From the IMG/VR virus record IMGVR_UViG_3300021963_000102, positions 1 to 64,000 of that record: 64,000 bases of DNA. One strand, 5' to 3'. Source of the DNA: a virus. The first letter of the stretch is position 1, and each line of letters opens with the position of its first letter. Of this stretch, positions 50,478-63,103 are shown in pieces. The notes beneath the pieces were generated by a model that was given only the letters and a program-made list of their open reading frames with translations, was not told where the DNA came from and did no database searches. Made by a program: the position numbers and the translations under genes.

Positions 50478-50544
50478 GAGTTATGTAGCTATAGTGGGCT
50501 TTTTTGCAGATAATATAGCATTAATATAATTTACTCTAACTAAT

Positions 50545-51010: not shown

Positions 51011-53598
51011 CACTCTTTAGGTTTTTTCTTAGCTCTTCCTTTTGCGTTCTCTTTTGCTATAGCTAAATCATTCTTCTGGTTTTCTCTAGCCACCTGAAGT
51101 TTTTCTCTTTCAACAGCTAGTTTCTCAGCAGCCAGTCTATTCTTGCTGCTTATATCAGCCATCTTTGCTTCAAAATCTTTAGAAGCTTTAGATTGTTCTG
51201 TAGCTAACTTGCTGATTTCCAGTACATCAGGTGTGCCACTAGCATCAACATCAGATAGAGGACCAGCTTTAGATTCAGCAGCTATTAGAGCAATCTCTTT
51301 CTTATTGATTCTATCAAGCTCGTTTTGGTAGTTTTCATTAGCAATGTCTTGCTCCTTAATAGCTTGAGCTTGTTGCATTTGAGCCTGAGCAATCTGAGCT
51401 TGCTGTTCAATTTGCTGTTGTTGCTGTTGCATTTGCTGTTGTTGTATAGCATCTTGCTTATCACGCAGCTCTTTGAACACCTTCTTCATAGCCCTCATAG
51501 ACTTGGTGCTGTAGAGCTCAATCACGTCATATAAGCTTCCACCATTTTGAATAAGTGGCTGAGCAAGTTGACGAAGCTCATTAAACATCTGTGTATCCTC
51601 AGGACGGTTGGTAAGGAACACCTTCAAATCTCTAAACTTGAGATCAGAACCATTCACTGTAACAAATGCAGACTCACCCTCGTTTGTAATATAGCTGAGA
51701 GTGGACTGAGGCTTCTTAGATTCTACATATAGAGCAGCATCAATAATAGCTTGATAGAGCTGTCCTAAAACATATTCGTGTGCAACAAACAGAGGTTCTG
51801 TTTGAGAATAAGACTGTTGTATAGCAGCTTGTGTACCTGTAGCAGATTCACTAGCTGTTACAGAACCAAGGCGCTGTCTACTCATACCAACAAGCTCCCA
51901 ACACTCGTTCTTCAGTTGCATAGCAAGTGTATAACGAGATTGGATTTCTTGTGTACGTGTAAGGTCAATATCTCTAAACTGATTGAATGAGCTTGGGCTC
52001 TTTAGGTTCTCAGGACTATCATCAATGAATACAACACCTCTGTTGCGTGCTTCCATTTCCCATACATCTAATGCATCTTGGGCATCACCATCCTTTGGAA
52101 CAGGAATATGACGAATGGATGTTAAATACACCTTACCCACTTCCTTCTCAAGAAGTTTGTAAAGCTGATTCATACATACATTATATAGCACCTGGAAAGG
52201 CTTCATCAAATCCACCAGAGATTTAGCCTCTGTGTTCTTCACCTCAAAGGTGGTGCCTATGATGGGACAATAGTTGAGGAGTTTGTAGGGTTTTATGTGA
52301 TAGATGTCTGGACCAATCTTAATTCCTTGATACCACTGATTCACCCATCCCCATTCTAAAGATTGTTCTGTAGGAATAGTACCACTCTTGTAATTCTCAT
52401 CTACAAGAATAGACTGTTCATTTCCCATCTCATCTATGTAGATAAGTTTACCAATCTTCTTCTTACTTATCCAATAACAACGAACAACAACATATTTATA
52501 TCCAAAACTACTAACGTTTGACGTTAGCCCTAAGAAGTCTTTTAATCCATCGTTGTTCTCCTTCATTTCTGATTCAATAATCATACGTGTCTGAAGAACC
52601 AAAGGATCATATGTGTCATACATTACAGAGTCTATACCAGGAATAGCATTTGGATTACCTAGATTGGACTCACGTACATTAATCAGTCCATAGTCTTGTA
52701 GAGAGCTTCTGAGATGATCTATTTCTTCCTTTGTAAGATCAGGAATACTCTCAATGATTTCTGAAAGCTCCATCACCTGCACTGTACCAGCAGCATAAGC
52801 TCCTTGTGCTCTACCTGTAGGATCACTAATCCACTTTCTATCAGGTGTGGTGAGAAACCATGTATTCTTTGGGTTAGCCACCTCAATGTTAAATCCAAGC
52901 TTAGAGTTGTCTTCATATATATGATAGAACTGACGTGCTGAAATAAGAAGGTCACGAAATGCATCTTCTGATTTCTCCTTCAAATTAAATTCAGCCTTCT
53001 GACATGTAAGCACATGGTTAGCCCATTTCTCAGCAACAGATGTGTAACTATCAAGGACATCTTTCACATCCTCCATGGTCATTTGATTCACCTCCTCATC
53101 ACCTATCTCTTCTCCATTTAGTGCTGCTTGTTGTAATATCTTTTGTCTAGCTTGAGAAATAACGTATTGCTGGAGAATGCCAGTTTTAAATTCTAGTTCT
53201 TCAGATTGACTATCATCATCAAATGCTTTAACACGGAAGGTGTCTGGACGCTTAGATATTTCACCCACTAATTCGTTCACAGGTGTGGTGATGATGGAAT
53301 ACATCTTTACATATGCAGGAAGCTGTAAATCAGCTGTCATTACATCTGTAAAACTTCTCACCTGTGGTTCTTGATAGAAGTCTTCCATTCTTAGGATGCC
53401 CTTCATCAAGTCATAGTTTTTGACAAATGTGTCACGGTTCTTTACATACTCAGCATATGCCTTGTTTGCAAAGTAGTCCATGGTGTTTTTTATCCAGCTC
53501 TCATCTTGCTTCTCCTTATCAGTTTTAAACTGGTCAGGGAATATATTCAAATAAGCATACCTGATGGTAGCATCTTTCGTATATCTAATTATGGCCAT
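51010..53598 (-). CDS. Portal protein, 862 aa
   Basis: It follows the large terminase with a 1-bp TAATG overlap, the standard order. Length, the mixed alpha/beta body (EWGWVNQWYQGIKIGPDIYH, LMKPFQVLYNVCMNQLYKLL) and the Gln-rich helical C-terminus (QQQQMQQQQQQIEQQAQIAQ) are characteristic of crAss-like portals. In the particle it forms the dodecameric channel at one capsid vertex and docks the terminase. The acidic/basic coiled C-terminal 150 residues end KGRAKKKPKE. No anomaly seen. Confidence 0.82.
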   Translation of the reverse strand: MAIIRYTKDATIRYAYLNIFPDQFKTDKEKQDESWIKNTMDYFANKAYAEYVKNRDTFVKNYDLMKGILRMEDFYQEPQVRSFTDVMTADLQLPAYVKMYSIITTPVNELVGEISKRPDTFRVKAFDDDSQSEELEFKTGILQQYVISQARQKILQQAALNGEEIGDEEVNQMTMEDVKDVLDSYTSVAEKWANHVLTCQKAEFNLKEKSEDAFRDLLISARQFYHIYEDNSKLGFNIEVANPKNTWFLTTPDRKWISDPTGRAQGAYAAGTVQVMELSEIIESIPDLTKEEIDHLRSSLQDYGLINVRESNLGNPNAIPGIDSVMYDTYDPLVLQTRMIIESEMKENNDGLKDFLGLTSNVSSFGYKYVVVRCYWISKKKIGKLIYIDEMGNEQSILVDENYKSGTIPTEQSLEWGWVNQWYQGIKIGPDIYHIKPYKLLNYCPIIGTTFEVKNTEAKSLVDLMKPFQVLYNVCMNQLYKLLEKEVGKVYLTSIRHIPVPKDGDAQDALDVWEMEARNRGVVFIDDSPENLKSPSSFNQFRDIDLTRTQEIQSRYTLAMQLKNECWELVGMSRQRLGSVTASESATGTQAAIQQSYSQTEPLFVAHEYVLGQLYQAIIDAALYVESKKPQSTLSYITNEGESAFVTVNGSDLKFRDLKVFLTNRPEDTQMFNELRQLAQPLIQNGGSLYDVIELYSTKSMRAMKKVFKELRDKQDAIQQQQMQQQQQQIEQQAQIAQAQMQQAQAIKEQDIANENYQNELDRINKKEIALIAAESKAGPLSDVDASGTPDVLEISKLATEQSKASKDFEAKMADISSKNRLAAEKLAVEREKLQVARENQKNDLAIAKENAKGRAKKKPKE

Positions 53599-55622
53599 TA
53601 TATAAACAATTTACTTTTCTTTCTTTGGAATATCCCTCTGGATTCTGTAAATAACTGATTCTTTCTATTAGGTTTGAAAAGTGCTTTCACTCTATCATCT
53701 CCTGTTCCTCCCACCTTTCCTAAAATGGGATTCATCTTTAACGCCTGTGCTATAGCTAGTTCTGCAGCAATAATACGGTCAAAGTTACCCTGATCGTTGT
53801 ATTGAATTATTTCTTCTAATAACATGGGATCAAATATCTTTGACACCCCTCTAAATTCTTTTGTAACATTTCCATCTGTGTCTGTCTCTCTGTGAATCAC
53901 CTCTTCCATATATTTCTTTAGACAGTTGTGCAAATAGTCCCTGATTTTATCAGAGCTTCTATGCACTCCATACTCACGTCTCACGGTAGTACCAGGCACT
54001 ATCTCCTTTAACCAATCAGGTTGCTTTTCAAGATAGTGTGCATCTCCTTTTGCTTTCATATATTCTATAAAGGAGATGTCATCATTTTCACAAAGCGTTC
54101 TAGCATTGTAAAACTTGATGAGCATTCTAGCCTGTTCTTCCCATGTTTCCTTCTTATCAGGACGTGCACAATAAGAAGCTACAAACATATCTTGATATTT
54201 CTCACTAGTGATGTCGTGCATACGTTTGTAAATATACACAGATCCTAGAGAAGTGGAATAGGCAGCTTGTCCTTGTCTATAAGGGTCAACACCTGCTACA
54301 TAAAGCCCATATGGAGGGTTTTCCATGGGAAACTCATATATGACAACAGGGGCTTCCTTTAAATCACTGTTCTTTAGAGGGAAGTTGGTGATGGGTTGTT
54401 TATCTGTAAACTCATGTCTTACACCATCTTCATCTTGAAACAGTATAACGGGAGTGCCTGTTCTTTCCTGCTGAAGAAGTCTAAACTTCTGACGCTTAGC
54501 TGCCTCTATATCAAATATGTTTGTGTCCTCATTTAAGAAGATGTCATCCACCTCAATTGGGTAGTACATCTTCTCTTTTAGATAGGCCACCCTATCTCCT
54601 GCTTTCTTTAGACGCTCTAGGTTGGTTTCTGTTATCTGTTTTGCTTTCTCTTCATTAGAGACAAGCATAGGAACATCATGTAAACTACTACTTGTAGGTT
54701 GGTCTAGAAAAGCTCCTAATGTGCTTTCTTCCTTAGCTTCCATCCTATACTTATAGGAAATGAAAAGCCCATGCACTCTTCTATCATCTTTCTCATTATT
54801 GTATGTGAGAAAGTTGAAATTGTCTACATCAAACATGAGGGTTTTAGCGTCCATGAAACGCTTCATATCACCACCTGTACCAGTGAGAATAGGAGAGCAC
54901 CCCCATCCATATGGTGTGGTGAAACCAGGCACAGCTGCCTGAAAACCTCTAAGGAAATTGCCCTTACCAATCTCATCAATAATCAGTTTACGAGGCTTTG
55001 TACCAGCAATAGCCTCTTCATTATTACCTTCATCCAGGTTACGAATGAGGATTTGGGAGAAGGGTATGCGTTCTCCTCCCTTGGTTTTAATACCCAGTGT
55101 CACTTGGTTTTTCCAGTTGTCTTCCACTCTTTGCCACCTCCAAGCTTCTGGTAAAAAGTTGAGGCCTTTGTCCAGCTTATCTGTGATCAGCTTGATATCT
55201 GGAGCATTCAACCCAGCGATCACATTCTGGGAATTCTCATCAAATGTTGCGCCCCATCCGATATAACTGGCCTCAATGACAGACTTAGCAAAACGTCTGA
55301 TGCCCAGTATCACTAGGCCTCTTTTATCTTGCTGAGCTCTGTCTATTTCGTTTGTCACCACCCACTCATTATCACGTAATAAGGGGTTGGCATATTTTTG
55401 ATAGATTCTTCCACGCTCATCTATTACATCCACTTCTGTGTGCCAGATGTTTAGATGCCAATAAAGGAATGGATTAATATACACCCCGTTCATTAAGCAT
55501 CCGTTGAGACATATCTCTCTATGGAAGTCAAAGAATGGCTTATACTCTGCAGATTCTCTATCTGGCAGACGCCCCTGATTAATAAACCAGTCTTTGTAGT
55601 CTATACTTATAAGCTCACTCAT
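53598..55622 (-). CDS. terL: Terminase large subunit, 674 aa
   Basis: The ATPase has a Walker-A-type loop GIRRFAKS at residues 107-114 (the variant R-R-x-A-K-S P-loop of terminases) and Walker B LIIDE at 213-217. The C-terminal RNase-H-like nuclease begins around GLYVAGVDPYRQG with D446 as the first metal ligand. The enzyme cuts concatemeric DNA and drives it into the prohead through the portal. It overlaps both neighbours by one base (TAATG). This is one of the most secure assignments in the window. Confidence 0.92.
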   Translation of the reverse strand: MSELISIDYKDWFINQGRLPDRESAEYKPFFDFHREICLNGCLMNGVYINPFLYWHLNIWHTEVDVIDERGRIYQKYANPLLRDNEWVVTNEIDRAQQDKRGLVILGIRRFAKSVIEASYIGWGATFDENSQNVIAGLNAPDIKLITDKLDKGLNFLPEAWRWQRVEDNWKNQVTLGIKTKGGERIPFSQILIRNLDEGNNEEAIAGTKPRKLIIDEIGKGNFLRGFQAAVPGFTTPYGWGCSPILTGTGGDMKRFMDAKTLMFDVDNFNFLTYNNEKDDRRVHGLFISYKYRMEAKEESTLGAFLDQPTSSSLHDVPMLVSNEEKAKQITETNLERLKKAGDRVAYLKEKMYYPIEVDDIFLNEDTNIFDIEAAKRQKFRLLQQERTGTPVILFQDEDGVRHEFTDKQPITNFPLKNSDLKEAPVVIYEFPMENPPYGLYVAGVDPYRQGQAAYSTSLGSVYIYKRMHDITSEKYQDMFVASYCARPDKKETWEEQARMLIKFYNARTLCENDDISFIEYMKAKGDAHYLEKQPDWLKEIVPGTTVRREYGVHRSSDKIRDYLHNCLKKYMEEVIHRETDTDGNVTKEFRGVSKIFDPMLLEEIIQYNDQGNFDRIIAAELAIAQALKMNPILGKVGGTGDDRVKALFKPNRKNQLFTESRGIFQRKKSKLFI

Positions 55623-57822: not shown

Positions 57823-57890
57823 ATGTAAACCCATCATGTCCTAATATGTAAACCCACCCCTTAACAAACACCCCCCTAGTAGTAAACCCA
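57823..57890. repeat. Three iteron-like GTAAACCCA repeats
   Basis: ATGTAAACCCA occurs at 57,823-57,833 and 57,846-57,856, and GTAAACCCA again at 57,882-57,890. The spacing is 23 and 34 bp. All are in one orientation and upstream of both leftward promoters, so they could be origin iterons or regulator sites. Confidence 0.5.
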
Positions 57891-58059
57891 TATATTGACC
57901 ATTCCCCCCTCCATAAACATCCTTCTATCAACCCCCTATCCCCTAATCATCTGGAAATCAACTATGTGCATAGGAGGGGAGGGTACTTCCAACAGAAACC
58001 CCACTGTCGAAAAGTAAATTGGGGGTATCCCCCCTATCATTAACCTAAAACCATTTAAA

Positions 58060-58590: not shown

Positions 58591-58686
58591 ATTCACCACT
58601 TTCTCCCACTTTTTGACACATATAAGTAAATAAAACACCTATATGCCATACATATAGCATTAATTAACCATTTAAACCTATTAGCT

Positions 58687-58803
58687 ATGAGTTATTTTAT
58701 TATTGATCCTAAAGGTAAGATATATTATGAAGCTTGCTGTATGGAAGAAGCTTTAATGAATTGTCCTAAAGGATATACAATTAAAATTGGACAGAGCCTG
58801 TAA
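58687..58803 (+). CDS. Very small protein, 38 aa
   Basis: Reads MSYFIIDPKGKIYYEACCME, then EALMNCPKGYTIKIGQSL. It has an ATTAACCATTTAAA-type leader like its rightward neighbours, and its stop codon lies within a terminator hairpin. Three cysteines are present. Small size lowers certainty, but the leader and terminator support a real gene. Confidence 0.5.
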   Translation: MSYFIIDPKGKIYYEACCMEEALMNCPKGYTIKIGQSL

Positions 58804-58818
58804 CAGGGCTCTTTTAAT
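58792..58818 (+). terminator. Terminator overlapping the 38-aa stop
   Basis: AGAGCCTG-TAA-CAGGGCTCT followed by TTTAATT: an 8-bp stem with one bulged G, the loop being the stop codon itself. It is upstream of the tRNA-like element. Confidence 0.6.
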
Positions 58819-58821
58819 TAT

Positions 58822-58901
58822 AGTTAGGTGGCGAAATAGAGCAAACGCACGTATTATTGTACGATTCCTATTGGAATACAGGTTCAAGTCCTGTCCTGAC
58901 A
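58822..58901 (+). tRNA. Class-II (Leu-like) tRNA-like structure with aberrant anticodon arm
   Basis: A cloverleaf can be drawn end to end: acceptor 58,823-58,828 with 58,895-58,900 (GTTAGG/CCTGAC), D stem GCG/CGC (31-33 with 46-48), long variable stem ATTCC-TATT-GGAAT (64-77) and a perfect T arm ACAGG-TTCAAGT-CCTGT (78-94). The arm in the anticodon place is CGTA-TTATTG-TACG, a 4-bp stem with a 6-nt loop, so no anticodon can be assigned. No CCA is encoded. It may be a degenerate tRNA, a tRNA mimic or a tRNA with an unusual loop. Confidence 0.5.
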
Positions 58902-58978
58902 TTTGTTGCATATGACATACAACAGAATATATATGCTGAGGCAACATTAGGCTATATATTCGCTTTAAAACGCTTGTT

Positions 58979-59341
58979 ATGAAAAACGAAACTATTTACA
59001 CAATAGTCCCTGATACCATAGATGGCAATTACATAGGAGATTACAAATATGAAGATGTTGTTAGAGCTAGTTGGTGTTATTTACACGGTGATTTACAAGA
59101 TAAGGTGGGATATGACATATTCAGTATGTTACGGGCTGAGTTAAAGCCTGAGCAGATTGATGAAACATGGCTGTCTGATGAATTTACAGAAGGCATATAT
59201 TCATGTGTATGCATGGGTGAGCCTTGTACATTCTTCAGATGGAAGCGTATGCACTATAAAGGACTTGTGGTCCTTAATGCAGATAAGGAGTCATACGAAT
59301 ATGCATCTAAATGTTATGAAGAAAGAGAATATTCAATTTAA
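58979..59341 (+). CDS. Hypothetical protein of the rightward arm, 120 aa
   Basis: Begins MKNETIYTIVPDTIDGNYIG, with aromatic and acidic segments (DYKYEDVVRASWCYLHGDLQ, LSDEFTEGIYSCVCMGEPC) and ends KCYEEREYSI. No conserved motif is recognised. The leader contains CTTTAAAACGCTTGTTATG, much like that of the next gene (TTTAAAACAGTTTGCTATG), suggesting that the two are expressed by the same signal or arose by duplication of the leader. Confidence 0.65.
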   Translation: MKNETIYTIVPDTIDGNYIGDYKYEDVVRASWCYLHGDLQDKVGYDIFSMLRAELKPEQIDETWLSDEFTEGIYSCVCMGEPCTFFRWKRMHYKGLVVLNADKESYEYASKCYEEREYSI

Positions 59342-60792: not shown

Positions 60793-61785
60793 ATGAAAAC
60801 CACAACACTCAAAACCGACAGAACATCAGCTAAAAAGGCTACAGAGCCCTTATTTAGCGCAGAAACAATGGTGGAACTAATCAAGGGGTCCACAGAAGGA
60901 GACAGTAAACCAGAGCCTAAGCCTGAATTTAGCAGTGAGAGACACATTAAGCTCAATGGCTATTTTATGGTGAGCGAGGGTATGTATGCTGTTTTAAAGC
61001 GTAACATCTTAAGAAATGTAAATACGCTCTTATTAGGCCCTACAGGTGTAGGTAAAACAGAACTAGTGAGCAATATTGCTCAGTCGTTAGGTGTGCCTCT
61101 CACCATATTTGACATGGGCACTATGACAGACCCAATTATGTCCTTAGTGGGTAATCACGTTATTAAGATGACTGATGGCATCACCACTAGTACATTTGTT
61201 AACAGTAGATTTTCTGAGGTGATTCAAAAGCCTGGTATTGTCCTATTAGACGAGATATCAAGGGCTGTTGTTACATCTAACAACCTGCTGTTCCCATGTC
61301 TAGATTTTCGTAGAGAGCTTCCTATGGAATATTCATTTGAGAACAATGAGCCTATTAAGGTGCATCCTCAATGTGTATTCATAGCTACAGCCAATTTAGG
61401 TGGTCAATATACAGGTACACATAAGCTAGATAGAGCTCTATTAGACCGTTTTATGGTGATTGAGCTTGATCCGCTTAAGAGCACAGAGGTGAAAAGAGCC
61501 CTTAAAACAAGCTATAAGAGCTTAAATACAGACATCATCAACGAGGCTGTGAAAACATATGTGGACATCAATAAGGCCCATTCTGAGTTCACTATTAGCT
61601 TTAGCCTATCTCTGCGTCACTTAAAGATGATATGTGAGCTAGTGGAAGATGGATTCACCCTTTATGACTCATTCTATATTGTTTGTAAGGGTATTGGTGG
61701 TCCTGATGGGGCAAAGGCTCTCGAAACAATATTTAAAACTTCTAAATCTGATTCTGATGGGGAAGATAGCGAAGATGATGAATAG
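60793..61785 (+). CDS. MoxR/CobS-type AAA+ ATPase, 330 aa
   Basis: A complete AAA+ core is present: Walker A GPTGVGKT (82-89), Walker B IVLLDE (149-154), sensor-1 N201 in IATANLGG and the arginine-finger segment LLDRF ending at 220. The layout with an insert before sensor 1 is that of MoxR ATPases, which remodel partners through a VWA-domain protein; CobS of cobaltochelatase is a related case. The first 45 residues are a low-complexity Lys/Glu/Pro linker and the C-terminus is acidic (SDGEDSEDDE). The VWA gene overlaps its 3' end by 11 bp. Confidence 0.85.
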   Translation: MKTTTLKTDRTSAKKATEPLFSAETMVELIKGSTEGDSKPEPKPEFSSERHIKLNGYFMVSEGMYAVLKRNILRNVNTLLLGPTGVGKTELVSNIAQSLGVPLTIFDMGTMTDPIMSLVGNHVIKMTDGITTSTFVNSRFSEVIQKPGIVLLDEISRAVVTSNNLLFPCLDFRRELPMEYSFENNEPIKVHPQCVFIATANLGGQYTGTHKLDRALLDRFMVIELDPLKSTEVKRALKTSYKSLNTDIINEAVKTYVDINKAHSEFTISFSLSLRHLKMICELVEDGFTLYDSFYIVCKGIGGPDGAKALETIFKTSKSDSDGEDSEDDE

Positions 61786-63103
61786 TGTCTTCAATTGGGA
61801 AGATAGCTATTTCGGTGGATATGAAAGGGTGATCTATGATCATCCTTCCATATTCGTTCCTCTGTCTATTGATGTAAGTTATACATCCAATCCTTCTGGT
61901 CTCACGTATTACACAGCCAATAAACTCTGTAATTTGTTTCTTCTTAAATGCATGAAACATAATATGTATCCTGTTTTGCTTAAGAATGCAAAAACAGAGG
62001 TGCGTAAAAACTGGATGGGTAAGGAGGAAACAGTGACAGTTTTTAACCAAAGATCTATTCGTGAATGTGTAACAGCCCTTTGTGTTATTGGAGATCCATT
62101 AGAAAACCTATTTGGTCATTATGCCAAGTTTCTAAGGGACATCACCATTGAATATACACATCCTGATGAGAAAGATAAGAAAAAATCAATTTGTGCATCA
62201 AGAGGTGGAGATTCTGTTGAGGAGCTTATGGGTGAAGAGTTCAGTAAAATAAAGGAGAACAATCCCTATTCATCAATGCGTTCTGGGGATGCTGTTTCTG
62301 GTGATTTAAAGGATGAAACCGTCTTTGAGAATGCTGATGATAAAGGATGTGGTGTATGGACTCCATCTCCAGAAGAACAAAAACTCTCTAATGCTCTTGT
62401 CAACCTATTAGATATATCTTTTGATCCTACAGAGGACAGGATATCCAATCTAAAATGTGGCAAAATGAGCCCTCACAAGGTGGCAGAAATCCCTGCTGGT
62501 AATACACACATTTATTACAGAGTGGAACATGACCAAAACACTAAACCATTCAGTGTGTGCATATTATGCGATGAGAGTGGTTCTATGAGAGGAGATCGTT
62601 TAGCTGTTTCTCAAAATCACCTTGTAAAGGTGCTATACGGAGCATTTTCTCAAATTATGCCCAAAGAGAAGATATATATCTATGGGCACAGTGGTGATAG
62701 CACACCTGTTGTTCGTGTGTATAATGACCATTACAATCTCTGTTTTGAAGAACTCATCAACTCTCAACTACATCAACATTATGATGAGAACTATGATGGT
62801 CCTGTTATAGAATGTGTTTATGAGCGTGTCAGAGAACAAACCTCTGATAACATCCTATTCATATCTATTAGCGATGGTCAGCCATCTGGTGTAGATTATG
62901 GTGGTCAATCTGCTATTGAGGACCTACAGAGAGTGATTGAGAAGTGCAAACGTGATGGGTTTGTTACAATGGGTATAGGACTTCTCTATCACAAAGTGAA
63001 AGACATATACAACTATCACACTGTCATTAATAACACAAAACATCTAGTTCAAAATGTATCATCCCTTATTAACCGTGTTGTAAAAACGGAATTTAAGAGC
63101 TAG
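61775..63103 (+). CDS. VWA-domain protein, MoxR partner (CobT-like), 442 aa
   Basis: Start at ATGATG (MMNSVFNWEDSYFGGYERVI), overlapping the ATPase stop, which indicates coupled translation. The MIDAS motif D266-E-S268-G-S270 (CDESGSMRG) and the downstream D367 (ISISDGQPSG) define a von Willebrand A domain in the C-terminal half. The N-terminal half is helical with polar linkers. MoxR-VWA pairs insert metals or remodel protein complexes in bacteria; the phage target is unknown. A CobS/CobT role in porphyrin chelation is not suggested by the neighbours. Confidence 0.85.
   Translation: MMNSVFNWEDSYFGGYERVIYDHPSIFVPLSIDVSYTSNPSGLTYYTANKLCNLFLLKCMKHNMYPVLLKNAKTEVRKNWMGKEETVTVFNQRSIRECVTALCVIGDPLENLFGHYAKFLRDITIEYTHPDEKDKKKSICASRGGDSVEELMGEEFSKIKENNPYSSMRSGDAVSGDLKDETVFENADDKGCGVWTPSPEEQKLSNALVNLLDISFDPTEDRISNLKCGKMSPHKVAEIPAGNTHIYYRVEHDQNTKPFSVCILCDESGSMRGDRLAVSQNHLVKVLYGAFSQIMPKEKIYIYGHSGDSTPVVRVYNDHYNLCFEELINSQLHQHYDENYDGPVIECVYERVREQTSDNILFISISDGQPSGVDYGGQSAIEDLQRVIEKCKRDGFVTMGIGLLYHKVKDIYNYHTVINNTKHLVQNVSSLINRVVKTEFKS

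Follow-up and report, generated by a model that had tools for sequence, protein, structure and literature searches.

The DNA that we analysed (the window, 64,000 nucleotides of a virus record of 71,097 bases) carries a plus-strand element that has the cloverleaf frame of a tRNA without a normal anticodon arm. Sequence comparison places this element in a large class of phage RNAs built on a tRNA frame and argues against an isolated decayed tRNA. The class is apparently undescribed; no published description of these elements was found in the open-licence literature, and as this was the only literature covered, its silence counts as weak evidence. With moderate confidence, we interpret the element as a non-decoding RNA on a tRNA-Leu-like chassis, which would be matured by host enzymes and in which the variable domain would be the functional part. 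The element and its arms are as follows, L019 being the locus of the nearest relative.

58822-58901 (+): tRNA-like RNA with a cloverleaf frame that lacks a normal anticodon arm (Rfam, fold, covariance model)
58822-58828 (+): acceptor stem, 5' strand AGTTAGG (Rfam alignment, fold; stem tested class-wide)
58831-58848 (+): D arm GCG-AAATAGAGCAAA-CGC with a 3-bp stem (Rfam alignment; frame common to L019, L124 and L241)
58850-58863 (+): hairpin replacing the anticodon arm, CGTATTATTGTACG (fold)
58864-58877 (+): variable arm ATTCC-TATT-GGAAT (fold; identical in L019)
58878-58894 (+): T arm ACAGG-TTCAAGT-CCTGT (Rfam alignment, fold)
58895-58901 (+): acceptor stem, 3' strand CCTGACA (comparison with L019)

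The tRNA-like cloverleaf noted in a preliminary description of this DNA is real. The Rfam tRNA model matched 58822-58902 with 29.4 bits (gathering 29; E=4e-4, permissive filters, 601 bases), the element folds as a cloverleaf (z=-2.65, with 4 of 200 shuffles equally good), and R1, a covariance model built from 47 elements of the class with the window and L019 left out, scored it at 50.8 bits (E=4e-8 in 1.48 Mb, comprising the window and 80 terminase relatives). Six R1 matches reached E<=7e-7 (L071, L077 with two, L019, L043 and the window) and the next stood at E=0.81; L071 was among the training sequences. The outcome of the tRNA-finder and covariance searches proposed at the outset was divided: ARAGORN called no tRNA anywhere within the window, and Rfam with default filters over the whole window did not detect the element, whereas the permissive Rfam scan and R1 both found it. 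The D, variable and T arms pair in register, as had been described, and the T arm is perfect, with TTCAAGT closed by ACAGG/CCTGT; full pairing of the acceptor did not hold, as AGTTAGG/CCTGACA forms six of seven pairs, including a U4.G69 wobble, and leaves an A1.A72 mismatch. Apart from this one mismatch, the element has an acceptor stem and a T arm of tRNA geometry, with a TTCRANY loop, and it lacks the canonical anticodon arm (5-bp stem, 7-nt loop, Y32 U33, R37). The reported 4-bp stem with a 6-nt loop is seen in its place (CGTA/TACG around TTATTG), and RNAfold alternatively closes an extra U.G pair to give 5 bp and a 4-nt loop.

From its very long ORFs and terminase kinship, we take the window contig to be a freshwater crAss-like phage. 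Through the terminase large subunit, 80 relatives (82-95% amino-acid identity) were gathered from IMG/VR; no close relatives of the window were found among isolated phages at the DNA level, and none were found through the 132-aa upstream protein. The features surrounding the element are listed below.

53598-55622 (-): terminase large subunit, phrog_6681
58652-58663 (+): promoter-like element ATATAGCATTAA (sequence and position conserved in relatives)
58687-58803 (+): small ORF of 38 codons, MSYFIIDPKGKIYYEACCMEEALMNCPKGYTIKIGQSL (read from sequence)
58793-58812 (+): terminator-like hairpin AGAGCC..GGGCTCT followed by T (upstream of RNA modules in many relatives)
58903-58963 (+): conserved element, possible H-type pseudoknot (pairing, sequence conservation)
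58979-59341 (+): ORF of 120 aa (no family match)

The exact 12-mer ATATAGCATTAA is likely to be a phage promoter. It has 108 exact copies at recurring positions in 73 of the 80 terminase-relative loci, compared with 2 in control loci that total 1.08 Mb, and is often trailed by TTAACCATTTAAA and then ATG. Of its two exact copies in the window (58652-58663 and 50513-50524, both +), the former lies 160 bases upstream of the tRNA-like element, which suggests a plausible transcription start and a direction towards the element; the latter, also in plus orientation, falls within the 594 bases that separate two minus-strand ORFs. The stop codon of the 38-codon ORF sits within the terminator-like hairpin. 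Three such hairpins were observed against 0.3 expected in shuffles, and the hairpin region comprises 23 bases that are identical in many relatives. Because this hairpin is just upstream, transcription of the element would require read-through. Downstream, the putative pseudoknot interleaves TGTTGC/GCAACA with GAATATATA/TATATATTC. This 61-nt segment, which the window and L019 have in common, has 98.9% of cells paired and covariation that is merely suggestive; it precedes different genes in crAss-like contigs (L019, L021, L076, L081, L084 and about 12 further loci) and had no match in Rfam. A minus-strand ORF at 58753-58947 was rejected as coding because L019 has an indel of 1 nt and a block of 55 nt inside it. 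Adjoining the region of the element is a gene pair in which a MoxR-type AAA ATPase (60793-61785, +) overlaps a CobT/VWA-domain protein (61649-63103, +), and a C-run-rich intergenic stretch at 57860-58040 (+; CCCCCC, ACCCCCCTA and similar) separates a minus-strand from a plus-strand gene block.

Comparison of the same locus in relatives bears on simple decay, one of three origins that had been suggested for the element, by which it would be the remnant of a phage tRNA-Leu/Ser whose anticodon has been lost. Several observations are in keeping with decay: the silence of ARAGORN and the low Rfam score, the state of the acceptor end in the window, and the distribution of the element at this site, as most of the crAss-like terminase relatives lack it and L037 presents an empty site, where the homologue of the 120-aa ORF directly follows the terminator-like hairpin with neither a tRNA-like element nor a pseudoknot. 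However, the element of L019 is 97.5% identical to that of the window over 80 bases, differing in a loop that is one base shorter (CGTATTATGTACG) and in a single A/G substitution within the T loop. The closest relative is therefore likewise without an anticodon, as is the class as a whole, and no copy with an intact anticodon was found at this locus among the relatives examined. Across all their arms, the identity of the two elements is about 97%, whereas their surroundings differ, and helices in the class are maintained by compensatory change (below). A tRNA pseudogene would be marked by close relatives that keep their anticodon and by arms that erode uncompensated, and neither was seen. Both outcomes that would have told against the preliminary description, arms not conserved in relatives and a relative whose anticodon is intact, were looked for and did not occur. 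The insert of the window element is known from only these two phages; the two copies differ at few positions and show no covariation. We reject decay both for the class and as the reason for the missing anticodon, and regard it overall as very unlikely.

The window copy itself is nevertheless damaged at its 3' end. In L019, CCTGAC is directly followed by a 55-nt block that contains T72, A73 and C74 and folds as a branched hairpin. This block is missing from the window together with positions 72-74, which accounts for the A1.A72 mismatch and for T73/T74 where the class has A73/C74. Lacking these positions, the window copy may be poorly processed or on its way out, and in this restricted sense it may be failing.

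The class was collected from viral contigs with a query of 20 bases from the 3' half of the element, in the class form and with two variable positions; the D-arm sequence played no part in this search. The copies extracted from all loci with this one 3' pattern comprise at least 173 distinct related sequences, and at least 191 elements with a paired acceptor were obtained within a set of candidates 53-180 bases long. Most have the common frame AGTCAGGTGGCGGAATTGGTAGACGC - insert - ATACAGGTTCGAATCCTGTCCTGACTAC, sharing the tRNA-Leu-like D arm, a near-constant acceptor AGUCAGG/CCUGACU and the T arm, with unrelated structures replacing the anticodon arm. Because the class was gathered by its constant 3' sequence, the constancy of that side is partly a matter of ascertainment; other acceptor sequences are present in L246, L242, L239 and L241. 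As scored by R1, the window element has the class frame (AGUYAGG-UGGCGRAAU..., T arm and CCUGAC acceptor) and departs from it in the A1-U72 pair and the A73-C74 flank.

Among the matches listed, the carriers are mostly metagenomic phages of the Bacteroidota type, and many of the records are fragments. A phage record may contain up to about ten strong matches; one 62-kb record (G009) has 15 matches in total and three others (G012, G013 and G014) have 10-13, the weakest of which include true tRNAs. At L127, seven elements within 3.4 kb alternate with short ORFs and true tRNAs. An exact 25-base pattern matched six contigs among 84,980 bacterial and archaeal genomes, all of them metagenome-assembled (four Bacteroidota, one labelled Neisseriaceae and one Helicobacteraceae), and related frames were rare among 50,697 phage records, where MW202828, LR756501 and, as a more distant case, crAssphage cr4_1 had them. 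Besides the elements, the arrays contain tmRNA genes, a GOLLD RNA and true tRNAs, which indicates that the elements belong to islands of stable RNA. In these arrays, the GOLLD RNA lies at L165:4476-4887 (-), and the tmRNA genes, separate from the elements, lie at L211:5724-6218, L129:1088-1533, L165:2717-3112 and L126:7832-8193, the last of them adjoined by a group I intron. At the elements themselves, Rfam reported no family except tRNA, and neither a group I intron nor any other known RNA was found in the inserts. A few canonical tRNAs bear the outer frame of the class, for example L168:13031-13101 (-), which has the anticodon TTT within AGUCAGG/CCUGACU; this suggests that true tRNAs and the elements have exchanged parts.

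The absence of an anticodon arm is a property of the class. Among the matches listed, a canonical anticodon arm was present in 3 of 191 elements compared with 203 of 250 true tRNAs at the same loci, the expectation from shuffled inserts being 0.4. As almost no member presents an anticodon loop, a decoy for anticodon-cleaving defences, another of the suggested origins, is unlikely. In a broader form, the elements could be decoys or sponges for some other host defence or enzyme that acts on tRNAs, such as a nuclease, a modification enzyme, a synthetase or a toxin directed at the acceptor end, with the domains diversified in an arms race. The multi-copy arrays, the constant acceptor and T frame combined with highly diverse inserts, and the near confinement of the elements to phages in the searches run would all suit such a role. 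However, anticodon nucleases require the loop that is absent here, no defence partner was identified, and the constant part is common to true tRNAs, so that specificity would have to reside in the inserts. We consider this broader form unlikely as well.

By contrast with the anticodon region, the ends of the elements resemble those of true tRNAs. C74 is found in 187 of 191 elements and in 247 of 250 true tRNAs (matches listed), U-1 in 83% of elements compared with 69% of true tRNAs, and A73 in 90% of elements; position 1 differs, being A in 93% of elements and G in 69% of true tRNAs. Conservation of the class ends at -2 and at about +75. In bacteria, RNase P and the enzymes of 3' maturation encounter ends of this kind on tRNAs. 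Judged from the U-1 and C74 flanks, which are like those of real tRNAs, the elements look like substrates of the tRNA-maturation enzymes. The remaining suggestion, a tRNA mimic engaged by host enzymes, is thus the best supported of the three: the flanks and the compensatory changes in the acceptor/T helix speak for the mimicry, and engagement by enzymes would follow from these features.

The same ends would also suit a cloverleaf that is a mere cutting site, separating the messages of a polycistronic phage transcript and leaving an excised RNA with no task. Among the matches listed, both flanking ORFs lie on the same strand as the element in 116 of 151 cases and both on the opposite strand in 3 of 151; the elements often alternate with short ORFs in arrays, and the window element is placed between the 38-codon and 120-aa ORFs, a position of the t-element type. 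The t-elements of plant mitochondria provide a precedent, as they are cleaved by RNase P and RNase Z and CCA-tailed but are not aminoacylated (PMC11658184). They resemble the phage elements in being tRNA-like, non-decoding and located between or at the ends of messages, and the phage elements are expected to be acted on by the same enzymes, RNase P, RNase Z and those that add CCA. In contrast to t-elements, the phage elements form arrays of several copies, in which the frame is constant and many different inserts are each conserved. A cutting site would have no need of the conservation seen in individual inserts, which in different phages show compensatory changes and contain unpaired segments that do not vary, and the elements are also found in ordinary tRNA islands. 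The position between ORFs fits a cutting site and a chassis for a functional domain equally, but the conserved inserts favour the chassis, and we regard a role limited to cutting as possible, though rather doubtful.

The compensatory changes indicate that the structure of the class is under selection, as far as can be judged from sequence comparison. In an alignment of 148 distinct matches, 99.4% of the cells of the acceptor and T helix are paired, and 9 of 12 acceptor/T pairs have changed on both sides, with 29 double-change cells compared with 1.3 in shuffles; this alignment leans towards structure because it was fitted to the model and includes some true tRNAs. Independently of that alignment, four orthologues, L197, L207, L225 and L246 (ctfjg026 in MW202828), display seven compensated pairs, of which three are in the acceptor, one is in the D stem and three are in the stems replacing the anticodon arm; in this family, the acceptor has switched from AGUCAGG/CCUGACU to AGUGCAG/CUGCACU. 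In the element of L139 and two elements of L172, the insert contains four compensated pairs together with invariant unpaired segments. At least 23 insert families are common to two or more sequences.

The elements can also be set against other tRNA-like RNAs. With canonical phage tRNAs they share the T arm, the U-1 and C74 flanks, the location in tRNA islands and the D-arm sequence GGCGGAAUUGGUAGACGC, which we take to be tRNA-Leu-like. Unlike these tRNAs, they have unrelated structures instead of an anticodon arm, and A1-U72 instead of the usual G1. tmRNA, of which genes occur in the element arrays, is similar in that a tRNA-like acceptor/T domain is joined to another domain; however, the phage elements, including that of the window, had no match to the tmRNA model in Rfam scans, and their insert takes the position of the anticodon arm.

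The YrlA bacterial Y RNAs are non-decoding RNAs that imitate tRNA, and the elements could by analogy be phage Y RNAs, tRNA-mimicking partners of Ro60. TROVE (Ro60) domain proteins are indeed encoded in two element-rich phages, at L256:787-2328 (+) and L257:715-2361 (+). However, they were found in only these 2 of 60 element-selected records and in 0 of 49 further crAss-like or pseudoknot records, and a Ro60 gene is absent from the window record and from most carriers. No match to the YrlA family was obtained in Rfam scans of the window element and the class loci. On this search of 110 records, the link to Ro60 is disfavoured as a general explanation, and we judge it extremely improbable.

A counterpart from a cultured phage is found in Tenacibaculum phage pT24 (LC168164), in which two genes are annotated merely as undetermined tRNAs.

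LC168164 192032-192110 (L243:3790-3868): 'tRNA-Undet' gene
LC168164 192399-192477 (L243:4157-4235): 'tRNA-Undet' gene

These two genes are near-identical, perfect cloverleafs with a hairpin of 3-nt loop for an anticodon arm. They lack an anticodon in the same way as the class does, but their acceptor stem (GGUUGUA) and D arm differ from those of the class. As pT24 is in culture, it would allow a similar element without an anticodon to be tested directly.

On our preferred reading, that of a host-matured RNA with a functional variable domain, the element would be transcribed within a longer phage transcript starting from the upstream promoter-like element. Host tRNA-maturation enzymes would recognize the acceptor/T-arm helix; RNase P would cut the 5' side, and the 3' side would be processed by RNase Z or exonucleases and receive CCA. 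The outcome would be a stable small RNA, whose variable domain may carry the specific task. If this reading is right, annotation programs overlook a large class of phage non-coding RNAs or take its members for odd or undetermined tRNAs or for tRNAs with four-base anticodons; the phage tRNA counts on which ecological and host-range studies draw would include non-decoding RNAs; and the class would be a natural case of tRNA-maturation enzymes making non-translational RNAs in bacteria. More tentatively, we can speculate that the tRNA fold serves Bacteroidota phages as a general chassis that bears a different RNA domain in each array member. A genome would then produce several to about a dozen RNAs with a constant acceptor/D/T frame, matured by the host in the manner of tRNAs, in which the domains at the place of the anticodon arm could act as distinct regulators, decoys or guides. 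Such an arrangement would be the natural counterpart of the 'tRNA scaffold' used in the laboratory.

Other structured RNAs were encountered in the loci examined. In the 735-kb phage LR756501, a tRNA-like gene (L242:1864-1980) has a hairpin of about 45 nt between its D and anticodon arms. A second structured RNA, present in L005, L007, L028, L067, L070, L076, L108 and L114, has the same design as the tRNA-like class and an unrelated sequence: a constant frame (CACCATT..hairpin with TTCCCAAGG loop..ACAG ... CTGAGTGCAGAGGGA) carries a variable insert behind a stem that changes on both sides between phages. In L076, this RNA lies on the minus strand, immediately upstream of the pseudoknot.
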